Source of the DNA: Hexactinellida sp. DTS-2022
Lineage: Eukaryota > Porifera > Hexactinellida
Length of the DNA: 64,000 nucleotides
Reading direction: 5' to 3'
Assembly (NCBI GenBank): GCA_028753945.1
Contig: JAPNXP010000009.1
Span: forward strand, 4,030,001 to 4,094,000
Part shown: piece by piece, positions 2,045 through 38,784 of the stretch
How the letters are laid out: every line of letters starts with the position of its first letter
How positions within the stretch are numbered: the stretch's first letter is position 1
Program-made: the position numbers and the translations under genes
Notes under the pieces: generated by a model
The model's database searches: none
What the model was told of the DNA's origin: nothing
Seen by the model: only the letters and a program-made list of their open reading frames with translations

Positions 2045-2280
2045 GTCTTACAGGAAACTCCCCCTAAGGGCCGTTACCTTACGAATCACAACAGCTTTAC
2101 AGCGGCGACATGACGAAAAATATCTAAAATTTTAGCTGTACCAAAAGCATTTTCTTTTGGAGGCATTGTCAATTAACCAACCACCAAAATATATTGCCTC
2201 CAAAGGGACTTGCTATCGGCAGCGTTGTGAATTAAATTTTTTAGTTTTGTTCTTAAACTCTTAGTTTATCAATTTTGCAT
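2045..2280. other. Upstream flank of the TRIM-like gene
   Basis: No coding sequence or known repeat was recognised here. It presumably holds the promoter of the gene at 2281, but I see no motif strong enough to name. Confidence 0.3.
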
Positions 2281-4239
2281 ATGTCTATTTTGACGTTAAT
2301 ACAAGGACAATCTATCTCGTTTGAAGAAGACATTTTCCAAGCACTTCAGAATATTTGTATTTGTACTTTTTGTGGTCAACTTGTATTCGAATCTTTACTA
2401 TTGAGATGTATACATTCGATATGTATTCAATGCACCAGGTTTATTTCGCAGATGAACCCAGATAACCATGAAAAAAATACACTCATTTGCCCTCGTTGTT
2501 CAGTAACAACCTCAATTAGTGATAATTATCAGCTACATCTGCCTCCTAACACAATAGCTAACGAATTTACTTTTTGGAGATCAATTGGCAAAAAGTTTGA
2601 AATGCGTGTGGATTGTTCTAATTCCTCCCATCCACTCTCTACTGCTTTATACTACTGTTTAACTTGTACTCTCTTTATGTGTAAAATGGACATGACTGTA
2701 CATAATACATCTTTTCAAAGTAATTTGCATCAAGTGTTATCTATATACAAATTTAACCATAGTCTTAGCAGCGAAAATGTTATCCCTGAAAGATTCCAAA
2801 TACTTTATTGTAAGTACCATTTCTCTGACTGTATTGTTTTCTATAATGAGAAAAATAACGAATTACTTTGCCCAAAATGTATAGACATTAACTGTCTTAA
2901 TGAGGAACAGTTACCAATTCAAGTTATATTAAATTCAAAGTTGGATGAATTAAATCACATGGATATACTTGCTTATCATAAAATAACTGAGAATGAGAAA
3001 ATAAATCTAAAACTTGAAGAGAAAATGGTTTCCTTGAAGGAAAATAAACTTAACTTCTTAGAGCGAATTTCCTTATCTTTCAAAAAAGTACGAGCTAAAC
3101 TGGATGAGAGAGAGTTTTTTTTGACTGATTTAGTCGTTTGTAATTTTTCCAAACAAATACGTTTCTTAGAAAATATTATTCGTATTTCACATTCAAAAAC
3201 AATCTGTCTGAAGTATTGTAGAGATTTCTGTAAGTTAATGTATAAGTTTACATCGTCTCCAAACTTTTTATTAACTGATAAATCTATTACACAACGTGTT
3301 CAGAGATTAACATCTGCTATCAATGAACCCTCTTTATCAGACTTTTACAAATATTCATTATGTATATATGAGTCAGATTTATGCTATCAAATTGAAAAGT
3401 ATGGTACCTTCCAAAGACTACCTGATTATACTTCTAGACATTTTAATTCCTTATCGATACCTCATTTGAAAAAAGCTTCTTCAATAACGTTTGATGCACA
3501 AGATAATTTTTTAATAGCAGATTGTGAAGTCATCTATATTTTGAAAACAAGAACTGAATTGAATTTTGGCTGCTCATACAAGACGGTTCCTCTGTTATCA
3601 AATTTAAAGAAAACTAGCTCAAATGAATTAAATCATATTGCGATTTGTCTTAAATCAAACAAGTTAATTACCGTGTATTCACAAGATAATTCGGTGGATA
3701 TATATGATATTGAGTTAAAAAATGCTGACGAAACTTTAAGTATAATACTCTTAGGTTCTATAAAGTTCAAAAATCCGCAAGGTTTGTGTACATATCGCAC
3801 TTCACTATATATTTGTGATTGCATTAATAATTTGGTTCGGGTATATAACTTAGCAGATAATAAATTTCTAATTGAAAATCGATTTGGGAATAGCGTTATT
3901 AACTCTCCTATCGATATTTCCATTTCTATGGATGCATTGTTGCATATTTTGGAGAAACAACCGTTTATCCAAGTTTTTACTTTAGAAGGTGTTCACATCA
4001 AGAAAATAGAGATTTTTAATTATGGCCTCCAGAATTCTTATAAGTTGATTCATTGTGACAAATTCAACAACATCCTCTTATCTAACATTCGAAAAAACTC
4101 GATAGATTTATTTTCGGCGAATGGAGTTGAGTTATGGAATACAAGATCTTTAATTAGTTTATCAGATAATTTTTCGTTTGTACTTAATTTATCAGACAAT
4201 CTTGTTATTTGTGAGCCTGACAAAATCCATTTCCTTTAA
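2281..4239 (+). CDS. TRIM-like protein: RING, B-box, coiled coil, NHL-like propeller
   Basis: An intronless reading frame of 652 codons. A TTG two codons upstream is in frame, but I place the start at ATG 2281. A complete C3HC4 RING is visible at residues 28-73 (C28, C31, C43, H45, C48, C51, C70, C73). A B-box-like set follows at 112-150 (C112, H117, C126, C129, C134, D137, H141, H150). A second Cys/His cluster lies near 178-210 and a charged helical stretch near 215-290 suits a coiled coil. The C-terminal third repeats NHL-like units such as NPQGLCTYRTSLYICD. Proteins of this plan are usually RING E3 ubiquitin ligases, and NHL propellers often bind RNA or protein. The substrate cannot be inferred. 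This is the only long undamaged gene in the window. A retrogene origin is possible because introns are absent. Confidence 0.85.
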   Translation: MSILTLIQGQSISFEEDIFQALQNICICTFCGQLVFESLLLRCIHSICIQCTRFISQMNPDNHEKNTLICPRCSVTTSISDNYQLHLPPNTIANEFTFWRSIGKKFEMRVDCSNSSHPLSTALYYCLTCTLFMCKMDMTVHNTSFQSNLHQVLSIYKFNHSLSSENVIPERFQILYCKYHFSDCIVFYNEKNNELLCPKCIDINCLNEEQLPIQVILNSKLDELNHMDILAYHKITENEKINLKLEEKMVSLKENKLNFLERISLSFKKVRAKLDEREFFLTDLVVCNFSKQIRFLENIIRISHSKTICLKYCRDFCKLMYKFTSSPNFLLTDKSITQRVQRLTSAINEPSLSDFYKYSLCIYESDLCYQIEKYGTFQRLPDYTSRHFNSLSIPHLKKASSITFDAQDNFLIADCEVIYILKTRTELNFGCSYKTVPLLSNLKKTSSNELNHIAICLKSNKLITVYSQDNSVDIYDIELKNADETLSIILLGSIKFKNPQGLCTYRTSLYICDCINNLVRVYNLADNKFLIENRFGNSVINSPIDISISMDALLHILEKQPFIQVFTLEGVHIKKIEIFNYGLQNSYKLIHCDKFNNILLSNIRKNSIDLFSANGVELWNTRSLISLSDNFSFVLNLSDNLVICEPDKIHFL

Positions 4240-12540: not shown

Positions 12541-15440
12541 TTAAGTGCTAACAACAATAAATATTCTGTAATGGTAAATAATAATTCTTGAGAATTTTTT
12601 CAATTTACGTTTATCGATACCTATTTGAAGCACAGAGAAGTTGTAGTTTTTAATTTTATTGGCAAGAAAACAATTAGCAGCAGTAATGATTAACTTGCTC
12701 AAAATACTCCAACTGTACACATCGCATTTAATACAATTTGATTTCCAGATAGCAATATCATCATCATTTTCCATGTATATCAAGGTGAGTTCTACTAATA
12801 ACCTTCTAGAGGGACCGTCTACAAGCAAAGTCAACAGCTGATTATTATTTTCTATTGCAATCATTATCTTCCATAAAGTTATAACTGAAGTAAGAACAGG
12901 CTCGGACGGATACTTAAGTCCGCCACGATCTGTTAATTGTAAGAGCTTAAACTCCGTATGTGATTCAACATCAAAAACAAATTATTTATCATAAGTTAAA
13001 GTATCAGTGCACACATGGCATTCCGGAGATCTTTTTAAGAACTTATGGACCGTATAGCCTGCGATAAAGCTAACCACTGAAGGATTTGTTGAGAGCATTC
13101 AATGGATGATAGATCGCCAATTTCATCAAGAAAAGGCATTACAGCTATTCCATCATCACTAGATGTATCAGAGGGGGTAGAAAAAGACTTTACAAATGTC
13201 TGAATCGTTTGGAAAGCATCTTGTTGGTCTGCAAACATGTTTAATATACTAGAAAGTTTAAGACGAAGCTCAATTTCAAGAATCTGAAGGTAAGAAATAT
13301 GGTAATTCGAACCCGACATCATACGGTAGAGTCCAAAATGGTGTTCCAACGGGTCAGTTTGTAAAAAGGATGATAATACATAAGAAAAGCCACAGTTTTC
13401 AGTTAGATGGTTAGTTAAAAGTGGTAAGGCAGTACAGGCGTGTCTAAAACTAGTATACGTTTGCTTACTCAATTTACCCGTTTTGTCAGGTAAATCCTGC
13501 CAAGCATCTAGCCAAAATACTATACGTGTCAAAAATAAAAATCGTTCATCGTTTAAGATCAACGGTCTTGATAGGCTATCATTTAAACGGGTCCCTTTGA
13601 ACGGCGTATTGATATTGAATATTTTCCAAAGAGTAAGAAGGATACCTACGAAACTAGATGCATTATTACGATACTCCGGACTACGACTTTCATTTTGGAT
13701 TTCAAGAGCAGATAGTGTAAGTTCGCTAACAACCTTCAAAACCAATTTGACATTTTGCCTTTCTAAACTAGATGGAAAACAAGCTTATACAGTCAAGTGA
13801 GGGGCTAGTTTTGCTAAACTGTATCGTTCAGAATTGTAGAGAAGGCGTACATCTTGAAAGGAAGCAGAATGGACACTGAGGGGGTAGCTGCATTTATCAA
13901 TGTCAATATGTTCAAAATTTGGAAAACGAAATGTTTTATCAAAAAATTTCTGATTTAACCAATTATTGCGTATACTTTTCAATATATGGACAAAATCAAA
14001 TGTAAGGAAGAGAGGTCTATTTTCATCAAAAGGGTGGGGTACTCTAGTTTTCAGCTTTCCACTAAGGGAAAACAATTTAAACAAGTTTACATTCAATGGG
14101 TAGTTATCGGTAGAAATCATTTGGACCTTTAAACCACAATGCTCAATATCGATTATACAAGATTTGATAGTGGGAAAGATTTTTTAGCTGAGATAGTTGT
14201 ACATGGTAACAAACGGGTAATACAAGACCATTTCCTATGCAAACTAGTCACCATAATCGCGAATACAGTTTTCGTCGGATCCTCAGGGAAAAATTTGGTG
14301 CAAATATTTTCCCGCCTTATAAGCAATATCAGATTTAATATGGATTTCATCCATTTGAATGATTACATTTTTTCCTCGGAACTAAAGCAAGATGTAGCCT
14401 GGGTGAGATAAGTGCCAAAATCATTTTCAAGACCGAAGGAAGAATACAACTTGTCTAATGTATGGACATGTGGTAGAGTAATACATTCTAAACTCTGAAG
14501 ATAGATATAACAAGCTGGAGAAATGAGATGAGTCTTAATGGACATAATTTGTGTTATTATATTGTATCTTCGCCTGTTTTTAGGAATAAATGTATTATCT
14601 AATTGACAGAGGATAAATTGAAGCTTAGCTAAATCTGAAGAATTGTATGTAGATCCGTCGATACGAGCTAAATCATCAATAACATTATTTATATGTTTTT
14701 TGGCAAGAGGAATATTGTATGAATGTGAGTTACAACTAGAATCAGAGACAGATTTTAAGGAGATTTCATGCAGTATAGATTCAATTTGTCGAATATCATT
14801 AATTGCATTTATCGAAAGGGGAATAATTTGTCCATGGAACCAGGCGGATACAGATAAAAAATTATTTACTTCCAGATATAAATCGACAGAAACAGTCCTA
14901 TCAACCATATTGGGTTGAATGAACCTAGTATTATGATTATCAGGATGCCATACTAACCAATTATCAGGTAATGCAATCAAGATTAACTTAGCTTTTAGAT
15001 CCTGTAAATTTCTGATGACGTACTTATGTTTCCCTCACTCTCAGATAGTAAGCTAAGCTGTAGTGTCTGATTCATCAATTCTTCTTCTTTTGCGTCATAC
15101 GACAAGCGAGTCCGTTTGGTTGTTGTGGTTGAAGAGTAGTAGGATGGACAACCAGGAAGTAAGCAGAACTGCGCCGTCTCTCAACTTGGGCTTTGCACGA
15201 GGTATTTCAGTGAAAGTTCCGTCTCCATTGGGAACCTTGTGAGAAACTTCGACATCTTCTTCTCGAAAGTGCTTCACGCATACATTGACTACCTTCAGGT
15301 CATCAATATCCTCTCGGTGAAGAGCCCGTATCCAAGCTTGTCTGATTTCTGGTGGATGTTCAGGCATCCTGAATATAGGAACTCTCTCATCTGGGCTGTA
15401 GTTACTTCTGCATCCGGGGGCTGGGCATAATGTAAATGAA
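12541..15440 (-). pseudogene. P-element transposase relic, longest copy
   Basis: Read on the minus strand. The THAP region (CPAPGCRSNYSPDERVPIF, MPEHPPEIRQAW, NVCVKHF) is near 15430-15280, but the ATG is out of frame with it. A 205-codon frame at 14980-14363 follows, then a frameshift just before the IIQMDEIH motif that likely holds a catalytic Asp. The core block RPLFLTFDFVHILKSIRNN lies at 14120-13785. The block at 13745-13035 includes FLQTDPLEHHFGLYRMM and the insertion-domain-like stretch. The C-terminus is at 12864-12541. Families of this type are THAP9/P-element transposases of about 750-900 residues. Several frame breaks make it inactive. Confidence 0.85.
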
Positions 15441-20922: not shown

Positions 20923-21864
20923 CTTGGATAGAGTAATGTTAACACCAATCTAACCAATGTTTAGGAATACAGCACTGAGAATCGTTCGAAGCTGTGAAAC
21001 TAATTGTCCGCTCTACAAATTAGCTTATATCTTTGAAAATAATAGATGAAAAGACTGAAAACTAAGTCACAACCATAAATATGATTCCTCTGCAGTGTTT
21101 ATTTAAAAAAAATTGGGGATAAATCTGATCTTAGGAAAATTTCTGCCTATTTTTAACTAAGGGAATACCCTTAAAACGAAAATTTCTGAACTAAATCTTT
21201 GATTACATCCCTGCATATTTTGACTATCATAAGTTTCATATTCTGGCTTCTTGAACTGAGAAATACAGTATAGTAAGTATTGAATAGGCATTGTTTTCTC
21301 GTTTCCTTTAATTTTCACCAGTGATATTTATGGCTATTGTGATTTCAAAAATTTGCTTTAGATGATCAATGAACGGTACTAGGTAGTACACAATTGTTTC
21401 AAAATTTCAAAGATTATATACATTCGGACCTTTAGCCCCCTGGCTTATTAGTAACGAAACTTATAGTGCAGCGTCGTGCCGTTTTTATTGTCATATATTT
21501 TTAAAGTAGTCACCCGAATATCTCTAAGTTAAAACTGTATCCAGCCCCGCACAACCCGGCACAGTCACTCATTTTGGGATTACACGAGGAGACCTGGAGT
21601 TTACCGTTTCATTAACATTTTTATAATTCAATTATATTAGTATATCGGTATTCATTAAAATGAATAATAAGGAAGCATGGGATTACCTGCAATCTAATGA
21701 GTCAGAACGAGCTGCTGCCTTGTCATTTGTACTCGACTTTCAGTTGGATGAAGGAGAATTAAGCAATCTTGATATAAATTCTCTAATCTCAAATCTAGTC
21801 GAAGTATGCAAGAAAAAAACAGACCTTCCAATGTGGGAAGACTTGCTATTTTATTCCTTCTTAC

Positions 21865-22435
21865 CAGGGGCGGATGAAGGGGTGCAGAGGGGGGCAATTC
21901 CCCCCTCTGCTGCCCCCCCCCCATACGGGGGCAGGAGGGAAGCGGCAGGCTAGGGGGTAGGAGGTTTATTACTATTACTATATACAACAATAACCCGTGT
22001 GTGTCAAACACCGAAAAACTATGAGAAAGTATTAATAATAGTTACAAAGTGTATAAGACACAAGTTAACTATCAGATAGTTTAGGTAGGAATTTTTATTT
22101 ACAATCTCTCCAAACTAAACAAAAGTAATGTTGTTGTCCAAAATTAGTAAACGAATATCCGTTTCAATCTAATTTTCGTCCAAACGAATATTCGTTTAGA
22201 GACTAATATTAGTTCGGAAACGAACGAATATTCGTTCAATGATTTCGAACGAATAATCGAATATTCGGTATATTCGTTTCAGCCCTAAAAAAACTCATAC
22301 AAGTACTCATCTTATCCATCAATGGAAGACGAATCTATAATCTATAGTCAATGAACTTACGGACAGTTTTGGGCATATTGGATTTTTTTGTTTTGTTGTT
22401 GCCCCACCCCTGCGGAAATCGTTCATACGCCCCTG
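21865..22435. mobile_element. hAT-type MITE inserted in the RAG1-like gene
   Basis: The ends are CAGGGGCGGATGAAGG and GTTCATACGCCCCTG. A perfect 8-bp duplication CTTCTTAC lies at 21857-21864 and 22436-22443. The interior holds repeated AACGAATATTCGTT palindromes, which may mark yet another hAT relic. Removing it rejoins the RAG1-like frame at FYSFLP-TSPHKKR. Confidence 0.92.
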
Positions 22436-22966
22436 CTTCTTACCCACTAGTCCACATAAGAAACGCTTAACAGAGGGGAAAATCATAATCGAATCTGATC
22501 TATCGTTAGAACCAAGGGAACCTCTTTCCCAACTAACCTTAGACTAAGTCCCCTTCTAATTCTTATTGGAACAATTGCTGATAAAGAAGGAGTTGACACC
22601 AAAACGATATCCGCTTATGCATTAATGCTTATTTCTAATGATTCCAGAGATAGAGAAACTGCTGACTATTGCAAGGAAATAATCAAAGGAGGAAATTTTG
22701 CCGGTTATTCACAAAGTATGCAGATTGACAAATCAACTTTTTTGCTTGACATGCTTGAAATTGGTAGGCGTAAATACACAACTTTCGACGTCTATGTAAA
22801 TCTGAACATATAACATTTCCGCATATTCCAAGCTTGCTCAATATCGCAATAATATGATTTTGGAAAATGAATTGGAATATATTCATAATGCCTCTCATAC
22901 TACTATAGGAATAGCTATCTCTTACAAAAGGATATTACAGCAGAGCATTTTACGGATTTTCGAAAC

Positions 22967-23210
22967 CAGTGGCGGACACTTGACGAAATATTGGGGGGTC
23001 AAAATTAATTGGGACTCATCACACTTTAACTTTCAGTCGCTATATATTTATGCTATTTTTGTATTGTTGTTTCTATTACAATTTGTACGCACTCCTTCCA
23101 CTTTTATAGTAAAGATTCATTGTGTTTCCACTTTTTGACTCAAATTTCTTTAAACTTTATTCTTTCGAAATTATTGGGGGGGCGACCGCCCCCCTTCGTG
23201 TCCGCCACTG
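22967..23210. mobile_element. Second hAT-type MITE inserted in the RAG1-like gene
   Basis: The ends are CAGTGGCGGACACTTGACG and TTCGTGTCCGCCACTG. A perfect 8-bp duplication TTCGAAAC lies at 22959-22966 and 23211-23218. Removing it rejoins ILRIFET with ITPLTDSQFPLTMKIADG. Non-coding. Confidence 0.93.
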
Positions 23211-24175
23211 TTCGAAACTATTACTCCTCTAACTGATTCCCAATTTCCTTTAACTATGAAAATTGCAGATGGGATTCATGGTTCTGGATGTCATCAAATT
23301 TATAATTAATATGAATTAAATCCCACTCCTAGCACAAAAAACTTTTTGTTGTTTGCATTCAAAATCTTGTCAATCCATGATTCAACCAGGTCACAGGTTT
23401 GGATTAATAATTCTCCCAATTCTTCCTATGGCGTAAGGCCTGTTGTTTTGCTTGCTCAGAAGGAATGTCTTGCCAACGTCCAACATATAATGGAGAATAT
23501 CATCAACCCGGATAGCAGTTGTATTGTGCAAGAGGGTTTGCAGGTTCCACAAGGTCATGTGCAAACAAATATCTATCGTAGCATGATAGATGGTAAAATG
23601 TCAGCAATCCTCAGTGGGGCTGGTCGAGCTCCTTGTCAACTGTGTACCGCGAGTAATGAAGACTTTCGCGATTTGGAACTTGTCCAATTAAGACTAAATC
23701 GTTAATACATATTAAAGAAATTAAATTTATTATTTTCTTAGATACATGCATGATTACATATCCATCAAATCAACCTTTTCACTGTGTCGACTATACTACG
23801 TATAGTATAATGGCCCAGCTCTAATCTTACTGCTTTGGTTACCGATTATTATTATTATTCTTCCGTCTCCTTTCCAAAGAACCGAGTTTTATTAACTAAG
23901 AGCTCAAATTTCATGACAAGTGTCATATGGGACAGATGTGTAGTACCTGGGGTCATGATTTTTTATTACATTTTTGGACACATTTTTTTACCTATTTAAT
24001 GCCACAACATGAAAAATACATAATATTAAATTTATATGCATTCGATAGAGAATATAATTATACACCTTTTCACAGTGCACAAATTTTCAAATTGGGTTTA
24101 GTTTGTGCCATAATTGGGGTGCCAATCTCCTATATTTCCTCACACTTAAGATTCCGTAAACTGATAAATCTAAAT

Positions 24176-24408
24176 ACAGTATATTGTTTCCACTTGTATT
24201 AATTATATTGATTTAACTTTTTAAATCTTACTGTATTGTGTCAACTTGTAATAAATATATTGTTTCCACTTGTAATAATTATATTGATTTAACTTTTTAA
24301 ATCTTACTGTATTGTGTCAACTTGTAATAAATATATTGATTTAACTTGTTTACTCTTACTCTATTGTTAAAACTTGCGAAAATTATATTGATCTAACTTG
24401 TGAATTCG
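24176..24408. repeat. AT-rich tandem repeat
   Basis: Imperfect repeats combining AATATATTGATTTAACTT, TTTAAATCTTACTGTATTG and TGTCAACTTGTAATAA, with a higher-order period of about 75 bp. Non-coding. Confidence 0.75.
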
Positions 24409-24567
24409 AGCTGCTTTCTAATTAATTGTGGTATTACTATACAATGGATTAAAGCAAATTAAAATAAATAAGGTATGTGTTGACTTAACTCAACTCACCG
24501 TGGATAACATTGCTAACATAATTAACTATTTATACAATTTACTATCTATAAAAAATGAATGAATGGC

Positions 24568-31173: not shown

Positions 31174-33300
31174 TCAAATGCGCTGTACAGAGATAGTGTG
31201 TGAGAATGTATGTGTGTGTTTGTGTAGCCATGTCATGTAATCACGGTTTGAATTCCTCAATATAGAGGTGATTTTCAGTTTTTTCTTGAAGATAGATTGT
31301 GACGACAAGTTTTGGATGTTTTGGGAGTCGATGCCATTCGGTGGGAGCCGAAATTGAGGGATATTTGATGATTTGGTGTTGCGGTGTTCAAGAATGTAAA
31401 TGTACCTGATCTGAGCGCACGATTTGGATATTGCTTTACCTTTACGAGTTCTTCGATGACGAAGGAGCGAGAGAGTGGATGGCTTTGAAGGCAATCAAGA
31501 TGATTTTATATATGCATTGATAATTGAACCCAGCCAGTGAAGTTCTTGTAGGAGGGAGGGGATATGATGGAGAGAACCGAGGGGAATGTTAGATGAGCAT
31601 GGCACCACTGTCTTGAACACGCTGGAGACGAGCAAAGAGTCTGTGAGGATGCCCATAAAGAAGGCTGCTGCAGTAGTCGAAACGAGATGTACTAGTGCGT
31701 TGGTAAGTGTCTCACATACATCTCGAGAAAGATATTTCCTTATGCGGCGGATGTTATAGATGAAGTAAAAACAGCAAGATGAAACTCTGTTTGCATGTGC
31801 TGACATTAAATTATGTTTCTCAAACCAGGTTCCAAGGTTCCTGACCTCATGTATTGCCGAGATGTAGGAGTTTCCAACAGAGATCCCCTAAATTTGGGTT
31901 TTGGTTAGTTGTCATGTTCCAATGACCTGAAAATCTGTATTTTTATCATTTATTAGAAGCCAATTGGTGAGAAAACAGGTGCGGACATCAGAGACAAGTG
32001 CCTCAATGGCGGAAAGAGCTGATCTTTCAGATGTTAATGAGTCTGATTTAAAGGAAAGATAAAGCTGAGTGTCATCTTCATTGCAGTGGATATAGGCAGA
32101 TGTGATTTGATGAGTTTGAAGAGAGGACTTGTGTATAGAGAAAAGAGAATATGCCCAAGACAGGACCCTTGAATGTCGTTTGCCGAGACGAATTGTTTTC
32201 TACCAGAGAGATAAGATTCAAACCAGGTTAGAACAGTGCCAGAGATCCCGAAGCACGTGTTAAGACGTTTGAGTAGTATTGTGTGATCGACTGTGTCAAA
32301 TGCTGCATTTAGATCGAGTAGAACGAGGAGTGTAACCTGTTGACGGTTCATGTTCGGCAGGATGTCATTTTTCACCCTTAGTATTGCCGTCTCTATGCTA
32401 TAATGTTGGCGGTAAGCAGACTGCATCTTGGGAGGAGATCGTGGACATTGAGATGGTCAACTAATTGTAAAGCGGCCGCTTTCACGGAAAGTTTAGACAC
32501 GAAAGGAAGTTTTGAAATAAGACGATAGTTGAGCAGAACGGGATCCAAGTGTTGTTTTTCAAGCTTAGGATGGATTATTGCGTGTTTCAATGATGAACAA
32601 AAGTAGTTTTGAGACAGGTGTTGATTTGTTTCTTCAGGACAGGCATAAGGATCTGTATTGAAGATTTACTATCCAGGATTGAATAGTGTCAGTATCACAC
32701 GTCTTATTCGAGTATTTAACCAGTCTGGTGATGTCTTGATCAGACAGCTCACGGAATTCTGTGAAAGATACGTGTTGGGTGTTGATGGATCCAAAAGAGC
32801 TGAGTGAGGTGGCGGATTTGAAATGGCCATGATGTTACCTATCTTCAGAGTGAAATTATCTGCGAATTTTTGAGTTGAGATTACATCATCAGAGAGCGAA
32901 ATAATTTGAAATAATTTGCGTTTGTCATGGCAATTCTGTTTACCCAGTCAGAGTAAATCTCGCGACGGCTGAGATTCATTAAGTAGGTGCTAAGATTTTT
33001 CTTTTTGTGGTAATCAACCAGATCATCAGCCAGACGCGAGAGGCGCCATCTCCTTTCTGCTTTCCTTTTCACCTGTTTAGACTTCTTGGTGGCTTCGTTA
33101 AACCATGGGACTCCACGGCGTTTGATGATGTACTTCTTTCGAGAAGGAGCATGGTGTTCGTATAAGCCAGATAGTCTATTATTTTAACAATCCAGGAGAG
33201 CAGGTGGATCCTGACAAAGCTCAGTTGAAGCGAGATCTTTCGGGAAGAGATGCATATCAATGGTCTTGGAACGGATGGTGACCTCCTTTGACTCAAGGTG
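31174..33300 (-). pseudogene. CR1/L2-like LINE reverse transcriptase relic
   Basis: Minus-strand frames in order: linker blocks (RRGVPWFNEATKKSK, VKRKAERRWRLSRLADDL) near 33110-32950, then HPKLEKQHLDPVLLN and SKLPFVSKL near 32570-32490. The RT palm is at 32426-32034, with SAYRQHYSIETAILRVKND, TLLVLLDLNAAFDTVDH and WFESYLSGRKQFV. The usual YADD is altered to NEDDTQLYL near 32075. The tail has SCCFYFIYNIRRIRKYLSRD and LLQELHWL (31806-31495) and a C-terminal block with NIQNLSSQSIFKKKLK. The order and motifs match Jockey-group LINEs (CR1/L2). The endonuclease is absent and frames are broken. Confidence 0.82.
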
Positions 33301-36549: not shown

Positions 36550-36880
36550 ACAATACACCATCAGTCCTACATTGAAACTAAAATGGGATATTCTTTATGG
36601 AATAGGTTTGACCAAATTTGAATTCCAAAGCTAATACTTTCAAATCATGTGAACCGAGTACAGTGACTTCGAATATCCAAACTCATTGCAACTGGTCAAA
36701 AGCATTAGGATACTCTACTATCCGGATAATCGAGGCCCCTATATACTGTATAGTCTTATTTGGTCAAGTTTTGAAACCATTGATTACTTATTTGTTTAGG
36801 GGGTTGCATCGATTCTAAGAGAATTTGTAGGTCATCACTTTTTGACAAAATTATTTAAGAAAGTTTTCCAAAGATAGTAG

Positions 36881-37962
36881 CATGATCCGTGACCTTCGAT
36901 ATATAAGGCCTGAGTGCTGGTTTGAACCATGGATTACTTAAAGTGCATTGAAAAATGGAGAATTGATCTTTATTCCAATAATTAGCAATGATAGAGCTGA
37001 AAAGTGTATTATAACTATATAGGAATATGGTACCCAGGTATACATAGCACTCTCCAGAATTGTGATATGTCATCATCTGATGACGTAATGGTAATTTTGG
37101 TTGCGAATTATCTTGTTTTTCTAGCATACTTTTAACATAGTTAAACGCGTTATAAATGTTCAAAATTGGAACATGGTTATACCCATAACTAGTTGAAAAA
37201 AATATATCGAAATTATAAATGGAATGTTGACACATTCCTCGGTTGCCATGGAAATGTATATTTCCTAAAATGTGTCATAACTCAAAAACTATGAATGTTA
37301 TGTAAACTAGGCTGGTACTGATCTGTCCGGAATAGGTAACTTCCTATTCATTGATAATACATTTTATATGCCTAACTTCAATCATCTTTGAGATAGTGAG
37401 TCATTACCTAATAATGAATTAAGTGTTAATTATGTCATGATCTCAAAGATGATTGAAGTTAGGCATATAAAATGTATTATCAATGAATAGGAAGTTACCT
37501 ATTCCGGACAGATCAGTACCAGCCTAGTTTACATAACATTCATAGTTTTTGAGTTATGACACATTTTAGGAAATATACATTTCCATGGCAACCGAGGAAT
37601 GTGTCAACATTCCATTTATAATTTCGATATATTTTTTTCAACTAGTTATGGGTATAACCATGTTCCAATTTTGAACATTTATAACGCGTTTAACTATGTT
37701 AAAAGTATGCTAGAAAAACAAGATAATTCGCAACCAAAATTACCATTACGTCATCAGATGATGACATATCACAATTCTGGAGAGTGCTATGTATACCTGG
37801 GTACCATATTCCTATATAGTTATAATACACTTTTCAGCTCTATCATTGCTAATTATTGGGATAAAGAACAATTCTCCATTTTTCAATGCACTTTAAGTAA
37901 TCCATGGTACACAAATTTTCGCTTAGCACTCAGGCCTTATATATCGAAGGTCACGCATGATC
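36881..37962. mobile_element. Near-perfect fold-back element with 0.5-kb arms
   Basis: Arms at 36881-37393 and about 37439-37962 are almost identical inverted copies separated by 45 bp. Each arm encodes the same 120-odd codon frame (MCQHSIYNFDIFFSTSYGYN onward) in opposite directions; I regard that as repeat sequence, not a gene. GTGACCTTCGATATATAAGG marks both outer ends. The few differences include a short length change at the outer end. High arm identity implies recent origin or gene conversion. Confidence 0.9.
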
Positions 37963-38784
37963 ATATATTATAATGCACTCTTTGGATTCAAATTACTAGG
38001 TTCTAAATATTAAATACAAAGAAATGCTGTGTTTTATATATTCCTGAAAATCATTCAGGCAGTCTACGGTTATTTAAATACATTACTTTTCAGAAATTTA
38101 AATTTTTTAACACATTCGATCTCAATGATGAGTCAGCAGTTTAGAATTTTAGTATTTTTGAATTTCTCAAATTCACATGACTATATTTGATATATTTATT
38201 CGCGGCATTGTAACACTAACCTAATCATTGTGTAATATGACTAGTCTAATTCGTTACAGGCTTACAGCATTGAATTGTAATTTCGAAATCGCTCATCGCT
38301 GTCGAATGTAAATAAATAAGCTATAGGACATTTATATTGATAAAGATATAAAGTTACTCTTACTAAACATCTTTTGATTACTACTATTGATAAACGATGT
38401 TATTGGAATAGTAGTGTTTCTTCTGATTCTTACTAATTTGTTCTATAGTGAATGGATACGTGTACTATGGATATTCTGCTACTTCTTAATTCGAATAACA
38501 ATTATTTGAGTAGTCAAGTATCCTAAATGTTCTGATCCATGGTGCTGAAAGTACAATATTTTCTATTACAAGGTACAGGGTACGCAATTTATTCGAATCC
38601 AAGCAGACCTATTCTCCTACGCTGTGACATCGTAATCTTTCATAATTTTTTGCATTAGCTGATATGTATCCCATCCTAGGTTCGAAATGGGACCAAGGGG
38701 TTTCACCGTACCTTACATTGGAGAATTTTGGCATCCATGCGAGTCTAAGTCACAAATAGAAGCAGTCGATTATCCAAATATATC
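37963..38784. other. AT-rich stretch without recognised gene
   Basis: No coding region or element ends seen. GGCAGTCTACGGTTA at about 38059 recurs at about 40511 but is too short to classify. Confidence 0.3.

Follow-up and report, generated by a model that had tools for sequence, protein, structure and literature searches.

The locus described here is almost certainly a dead copy of a DNA transposon of the Transib superfamily in the genome of a glass sponge, with relatives in the same genome that are mobile and leave 5-bp target duplications. In the window, the whole 64-kb stretch of DNA that was analysed, positions 21175-23684 of the (+) strand hold what is left of a transposase gene, truncated and with frameshifts, that belongs to the Transib (RAG1-core) superfamily and is preserved in three pieces (Table 1). 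The relic is an ordinary dead transposon and of little importance by itself; what is notable is the family, for its ends and its copy number.

A tblastn comparison of 11 transposases from the same genome with the whole window was used to delimit the relic. Matches were confined to 21651-23732 (E<=1e-4), the best being with the transposase of locus L036 (E 2e-70, 67% over 177 aa), and the reversed window, used as a control in the same search, gave 0 matches at E<=0.01. The closest copy elsewhere in the genome was L038 (contig C1), with 91-96% identity across the three pieces (95.3% over 21175-21865, 91.5% over 22441-22966 and 96.0% over 23211-23684). Piece 1 corresponds to L038 2358-3051 and is 93.5% identical to a further copy, L054. 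Piece 2 corresponds to L038 3048-3589 and was matched by tblastn to aa 75-263 of the relatives with frame changes, and piece 3 corresponds to L038 3582-4054 and to aa 247-422 of L036 (67%), its breakpoint at 23684 being seen directly. The element tip and the first 118 bp (L038 2240-2357) are absent from the relic. A preliminary description of this DNA had placed the feature at 21660..23705; the homology to L038 actually runs from 21175 to 23684, and 21660 is the position of the ATG. The amino-acid blocks which that description quoted in RAG1-core order are all present, in the order stated.

While L038 is 91-96% identical to the relic throughout, L054 is 93.5% identical over the first 695 bp and 71-74% thereafter, a mosaic pattern that suggests recombination between subfamilies. 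On the 3' side of the relic, window positions 24252-24567 carry an AT-rich repeat that is 82-85% similar to stretches near L036, L038, L041 and L048.

Table 1. Features of the transposase relic and its inserts (positions in the 64-kb window)
Feature	Position	Strand	Description
Relic piece 1	21175..21864	+	5' untranslated part of the element, then the transposase gene from its ATG (21660)
hAT-type non-autonomous insert 1	21865..22435		571 bp; inverted ends CAGGGGCG
Relic piece 2	22436..22966	+	RAG1-NBD-like region up to just short of the catalytic domain; more than one reading frame
hAT-type non-autonomous insert 2	22967..23210		244 bp; inverted ends CAGTGGCGGACAC
Relic piece 3	23211..23684	+	Initial portion of the catalytic domain (RNase H-like), with the zinc-binding CxxC
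First catalytic Asp site	23277..23279	+	Reads His; DGLDGSG in relatives, DGIHGSG in relic
In-frame stop in relic coding region	23307..23309	+	From translation
Second catalytic Asp (MIDGK), kept	23589..23591	+	From translation and alignment

The defining features of hAT elements are short inverted repeats and an 8-bp target duplication, and both inserts possess them. Insert 1 is flanked by the perfect 8-bp duplication CTTCTTAC (21857-21864 and 22436-22443) and insert 2 by TTCGAAAC (22959-22966 and 23211-23218), which is likewise perfect; judged by inverted repeats and duplication length alone, both are probably of hAT type. Together with its duplication, each adds a multiple of three (579 bp for insert 1 and 252 bp for insert 2). 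Both insert sites are empty in L038 (22/24 bases each), and in L054 the site of insert 1 is empty (24/24 bases) and that of insert 2 aligns more weakly (17/24). Further copies of both inserts occur elsewhere in the genome, the next full-length copy being 87% identical to insert 1, of which there are partial copies besides, and 93% identical to insert 2. The duplications and empty sites bear out the earlier claim that two hAT insertions split the gene. The claim that these are datable is not supported, and dating of the relic by its inserts, with next copies at 87% and 93%, was rejected for want of a substitution rate.

Of the catalytic triad, the relic keeps just the second Asp. The first catalytic Asp, kept in 35/35 aligned rows, is the second Asp of the DGLDGSG block, which aligns with an Asp of HzTransib (FDG) and RAG1 (CDG) that we take to be catalytic. 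The corresponding block of the relic had been described as conserved and is not intact, its catalytic Asp having been replaced by His. The loss of the C-terminal catalytic Glu had been recognised correctly: because homology stops at 23684, the relic is without the third catalytic residue, the C-terminus and the 3' end of the element. The reading frames also differ between its pieces (tblastn pieces start at 21660, 22541, 22818 and 23208). To judge from its sequence, the relic can neither move by itself nor make an active enzyme.

Several other features were observed in the window. Near-identical frames of 137-139 aa run in opposite directions at 36855-37274 (-) and 37560-37973 (+) and form a large inverted repeat; one of these frames gave no Pfam match at 0.001. 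Broken frames at 12541-15034 (-) look similar, on visual inspection, to a 544-aa frame of L053 (L053:2-1633), which is presumably P-element or THAP9-like by its motifs, and three frames of this region had no Pfam match at 0.001. A reverse transcriptase fragment lies at 32037-32456 (-) (Pfam RVT_1, E 1.8e-9), and a 660-aa open frame at 2257-4239 (+) appears by eye to be of RING/B-box-NHL (TRIM-like) type and matched no Pfam family at 0.001.

The relatives of the relic are numerous in the assembly (112 Mb, 18 contigs). A 131-aa relic piece found at least 150 matches in the genome, the relic included, and this figure is a lower bound because 150 of 355 candidates were scored. The Pfam RAG1 family gave 33 matches, 15 of them over the cut-off, and none in the control genomes (0/14). 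Fifteen matches lie in frames of at least 690 aa, two of which contain a stop, so that 13 are unbroken single frames, apparently intact copies of the kind for which the preliminary description had proposed a search; the C-terminus of one of these, L049, departs from that of its family. Copies of the same family at different sites are 98.4-99.8% identical, which suggests recent movement.

The locus L051 / L056 (G000 C2:3227715-3229808, + strand) carries an unbroken Transib-like frame of 698 aa, for which no second copy above 39% identity was found among the 64 matches scored of 542 candidates. Its match to lancelet RAG1L (E 1.6e-21) is better than that of L036, the other protein searched singly. 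CAC ends with a target duplication were sought at this locus and not found, and L051 is possibly domesticated.

Element ends were analysed by scanning 20 loci for CAC tips flanking the gene, with an exact 5-bp duplication and no more than four mismatches between the ends over 14 bp. Complete elements of 2975-3735 bp with perfect 5-bp target duplications were recovered at 12/20 loci, 10 of them with an unbroken transposase frame (the exceptions being L039 and L055), and the scan found no complete element at the other eight. All 24 ends of the 12 elements start with CACAGTGG, which contains CACAGTG, the RSS heptamer consensus (PMC8289069). A second block is present at both ends and lies 9-10 bp further in at the 3' end in 7/9 lineages, starting at positions 15-19 versus 24-28; in L036, for example, the block GGAAGTAGG is found at positions 19 and 28. 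Shuffled ends showed such an offset in 0.47 lineages on average and in 3 at most. No offset was seen in L048 and L050. In several single elements the block taken by itself does not differ significantly from what shuffled ends give, so that the case for unequal spacers is made by the recurring offset.

The link from the relic to Transib and RAG1 runs through these better preserved copies, because the relic pieces alone match weakly. Searched apart, the pieces gave no Pfam RAG1 match (0/5), one piece gave no RAG1 or Transib match in NCBIfam, and the best piece alone, which matched no Pfam family, reached HzTransib only at E 0.0061. The 712-aa protein of L036, in contrast, matched the solved structure of HzTransib (6pqn), which we take to be the Helicoverpa zea transposase, at E 2.8e-25, lancelet RAG1L (6b40) at 1.3e-7 and vertebrate RAG1 at 3e-6. 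An 11-copy profile matched 6pqn at 1.1e-54, lancelet RAG1L at 8.7e-29 and RAG1 at about 1e-16 to 1e-18. With 28.8 bits against a Pfam threshold of 25, L036 also qualifies as a RAG1 match, as do all six genome proteins searched. The triad D, D, E is kept in 11/11 of our own sequences compared, and their core identity is 18-23% to RAG1L/RAG1 and 24-29% to the HzTransib-like protein P0065. A core identity to RAG1/RAG1L under 22% has been used as a criterion for Transib (PMC7204232); in one comparison L036, L042, L049 and L051 stood at 22% and L050 at 23%, and 3/12 HzTransib-like rows also stood at 22%.

By their features, the relatives appear to fit the RAG1-proximal Subgroup I Transibs. The zinc-binding region has a Cys-to-His stretch of 65-69 residues in 20/21 glass-sponge-type rows (the remaining row is broken), compared with 60-64 in two RAG rows and 30 in 12/12 HzTransib-like rows, of which the 7 with a named organism are all from insects. 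An N-terminal profile built from ten copies had as its top match RAG1 3gna (E 5e-5), which we take to be the nonamer-binding domain, and the best 16 of 20 matches were to RAG1. By length and alignment, the sponge zinc-domain segment would correspond to alpha11-alpha12 of RAG1, the RAG2-binding region, whose equivalent is described as retained by Transibs of Subgroup I and lost from those of Subgroup II (PMC9435367). In a tree of 35 rows the two RAG rows stand apart (100/100), 20/21 sponge-type rows group together (100/99) with L051 apart, and the 12 HzTransib-like rows form a separate group (100/99). The tree consists of these three long-branched groups and has no outgroup, bacterial and viral relatives having been sought for that role and none confirmed, and it gives no placement of the sponge group relative to RAG1L and HzTransib.

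The CTT1 tail has been given as Cx2Cx3GHx4C (PMC7204232). A relaxed C-terminal knuckle (GHx3-6C) is present in 5/11 of our own sequences and 13/30 testable relatives and is missing from other lineages; in the 13 relatives it always lies 42 aa after ExxNK, with the exact x4 spacing just in P0020 and P0025. The motif is a common zinc knuckle, differs for the most part in its last spacing and, on the 35-row tree, is restricted to a single sponge clade; convergence is therefore possible, and the knuckle is not claimed as proof of RAG1L kinship. None of the 84 HzTransib-like proteins testable among 120 listed of 1039 matches has the knuckle.

As far as protein searches that scored at most 7995 candidates can show, it is very unlikely that an ordinary Transib of the HzTransib-like kind (Subgroup II), acquired by the sponge through horizontal transfer, gave rise to the family. 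Massive horizontal transfer has been inferred for Transibs, and Subgroup II, too, is reported to have asymmetric ends and an NBD (PMC9435367). However, the HzTransib-like proteins share just 24-29% core identity with the sponge sequences, fall into a separate, strongly supported group of their own, and have neither the RAG1-type segment (30 vs 65-69 residues) nor the knuckle (0 of 84 testable).

The preliminary description had proposed a fossil of a RAG-like or Transib element, and the Transib part of this stands, L036 being closest to HzTransib. That the relic derives from a true RAG-like transposon carrying both RAG1L and RAG2L is most unlikely, despite a zinc Cys-His spacing close to that of RAG1L and RAG1, the presence in some copies of a C-terminal zinc knuckle that resembles the RAG1L tail, and an N-terminal region that is RAG1-NBD-like. 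L036 is nearer to HzTransib than to lancelet RAG1L or RAG1, the core identity of our 11 sequences to RAG1L/RAG1 is below that to HzTransib-like protein, and in 12/12 complete elements no frame besides the transposase and its pieces exceeds 123 aa, a measure that an intron-split RAG2L would escape. Because all 12 complete elements are without room for a RAG2-like gene, the family is assigned to Transib and not to the RAG1L-RAG2L transposons, and the RAG2-like partner for which a search had been suggested was found in none of them. The RAG2 families PF03089 and PF13341 had no match in the genome, but the positive controls were equally silent, so that only the element anatomy counts.

That the relic is instead a decayed host gene, a domesticated transposase, is extremely unlikely: L051 may be a single-copy intact Transib-like gene (no close second copy and no ends found), but L038 has CACAGTGG tips and a near-perfect 5-bp duplication (CGGTA/CGGCA), perfect 5-bp duplications are present at L036, L037 and L039, and the homology between the relic and L038 includes sequence 5' of the ATG.

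That the relic inserted as a Transib is deduced from L038, since the relic no longer has ends or a target duplication of its own. The family would move by cut and paste, leaving a 5-bp duplication at the target. A DDE transposase of about 700 aa and of the RAG1 core type would bind both element ends, which start with the conserved tip and in most lineages carry the second block at a distance from the tip that is greater by about one helical turn on the 3' side, and would excise the element and insert it elsewhere. From HzTransib and RAG we infer that nick-hairpin chemistry is employed and that the unequal spacers are put to use. The history of the relic would comprise one insertion, followed by two hAT-type hits and then by decay, in which both ends and the C-terminal half were lost, the first catalytic Asp was replaced and frameshifts and a stop arose.

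Among the 64 protein relatives listed, all 13 that carried an organism name came from a glass sponge, Oopsacas minuta, so that the transposon relatives point to a glass-sponge (Hexactinellida) host. These 13 belong to the same family, with 37-61% identity to L036, and are labelled V(D)J recombination-activating protein 1 or DNA-mediated transposase, which are UniRef/NCBI source labels only. In the main text of the Oopsacas and Aphrocallistes genome papers neither Transib nor RAG1 is mentioned, and the word "sponge" is absent from the main text of the RAG/Transib papers checked for it. Literature searches brought up no report that we recognised of Transib in glass sponges. Hundreds of Transibs are reported from other metazoans, which may include sponges (PMC9435367). 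Thus the extension of host range that had been anticipated holds modestly, and for Transib: the family belongs to a type already known, and for its apparent host group no report was found. Autonomous Transibs are described as typically numbering no more than one to a few per animal genome (PMC4411706), whereas the sponge family is present in many copies, with unbroken long frames in 13 or more of them.

A wider reading, which we offer tentatively and consider doubtful, is that glass sponges harbour a large, still-mobile radiation of RAG1-proximal Transibs that combines an exact RSS heptamer, spacers differing by about one helical turn and a RAG1-type zinc region with no RAG2, and of which L051 is maybe a domesticated member. 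If true, an early animal lineage without RAG2 would have both the segment of RAG1 that binds RAG2 and the recognition of a heptamer together with unequal spacers. As RSS-heptamer ends with unequal spacers are here combined with a RAG1-type protein and no RAG2, 12/23-type end-pairing asymmetry in the absence of RAG2 would be testable on apparently living elements.

The sponge elements can be compared with several known systems. With HzTransib, the best solved-structure match of the relatives, they have in common the order of the DDE core, the catalytic triad and the zinc-binding Cys/His pairs; the HzTransib-like proteins differ in lacking the RAG1-length segment and the knuckle. Like ProtoRAG and the other RAG1L-RAG2L transposons (PMC7204232), they have CAC tips, 5-bp duplications and a RAG1-type core, and some copies match in part the CCGHC-like tail. 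They differ from these in the lack of a RAG2L frame, in a core identity of 18-23% and in the lack of a RING family in Pfam searches of six genome proteins. With Subgroup I Transibs (PMC9435367) they share a segment of alpha11-alpha12 length, asymmetrically spaced ends and an NBD-like region. The CTT1-like knuckle of that subgroup is present in some sponge copies and absent from several lineages, and where present its last spacing is mostly longer than GHx4C. The second block of the sponge ends is unlike the RSS nonamer ACAAAAACC. Unequal spacers of 4/13 bp are reported for AanRAGL (PMC9435367), and among Transibs some ends are identical to the canonical RSS and some show 12/23 asymmetry, 12/23-like ends being described for Drosophila Transib5 and Anopheles Transibs (PMC8355894). 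In the sponge elements the second block lies closer to the tip than in these insect Transibs, which they otherwise resemble in heptamer-like tips, unequal spacers and a single gene.
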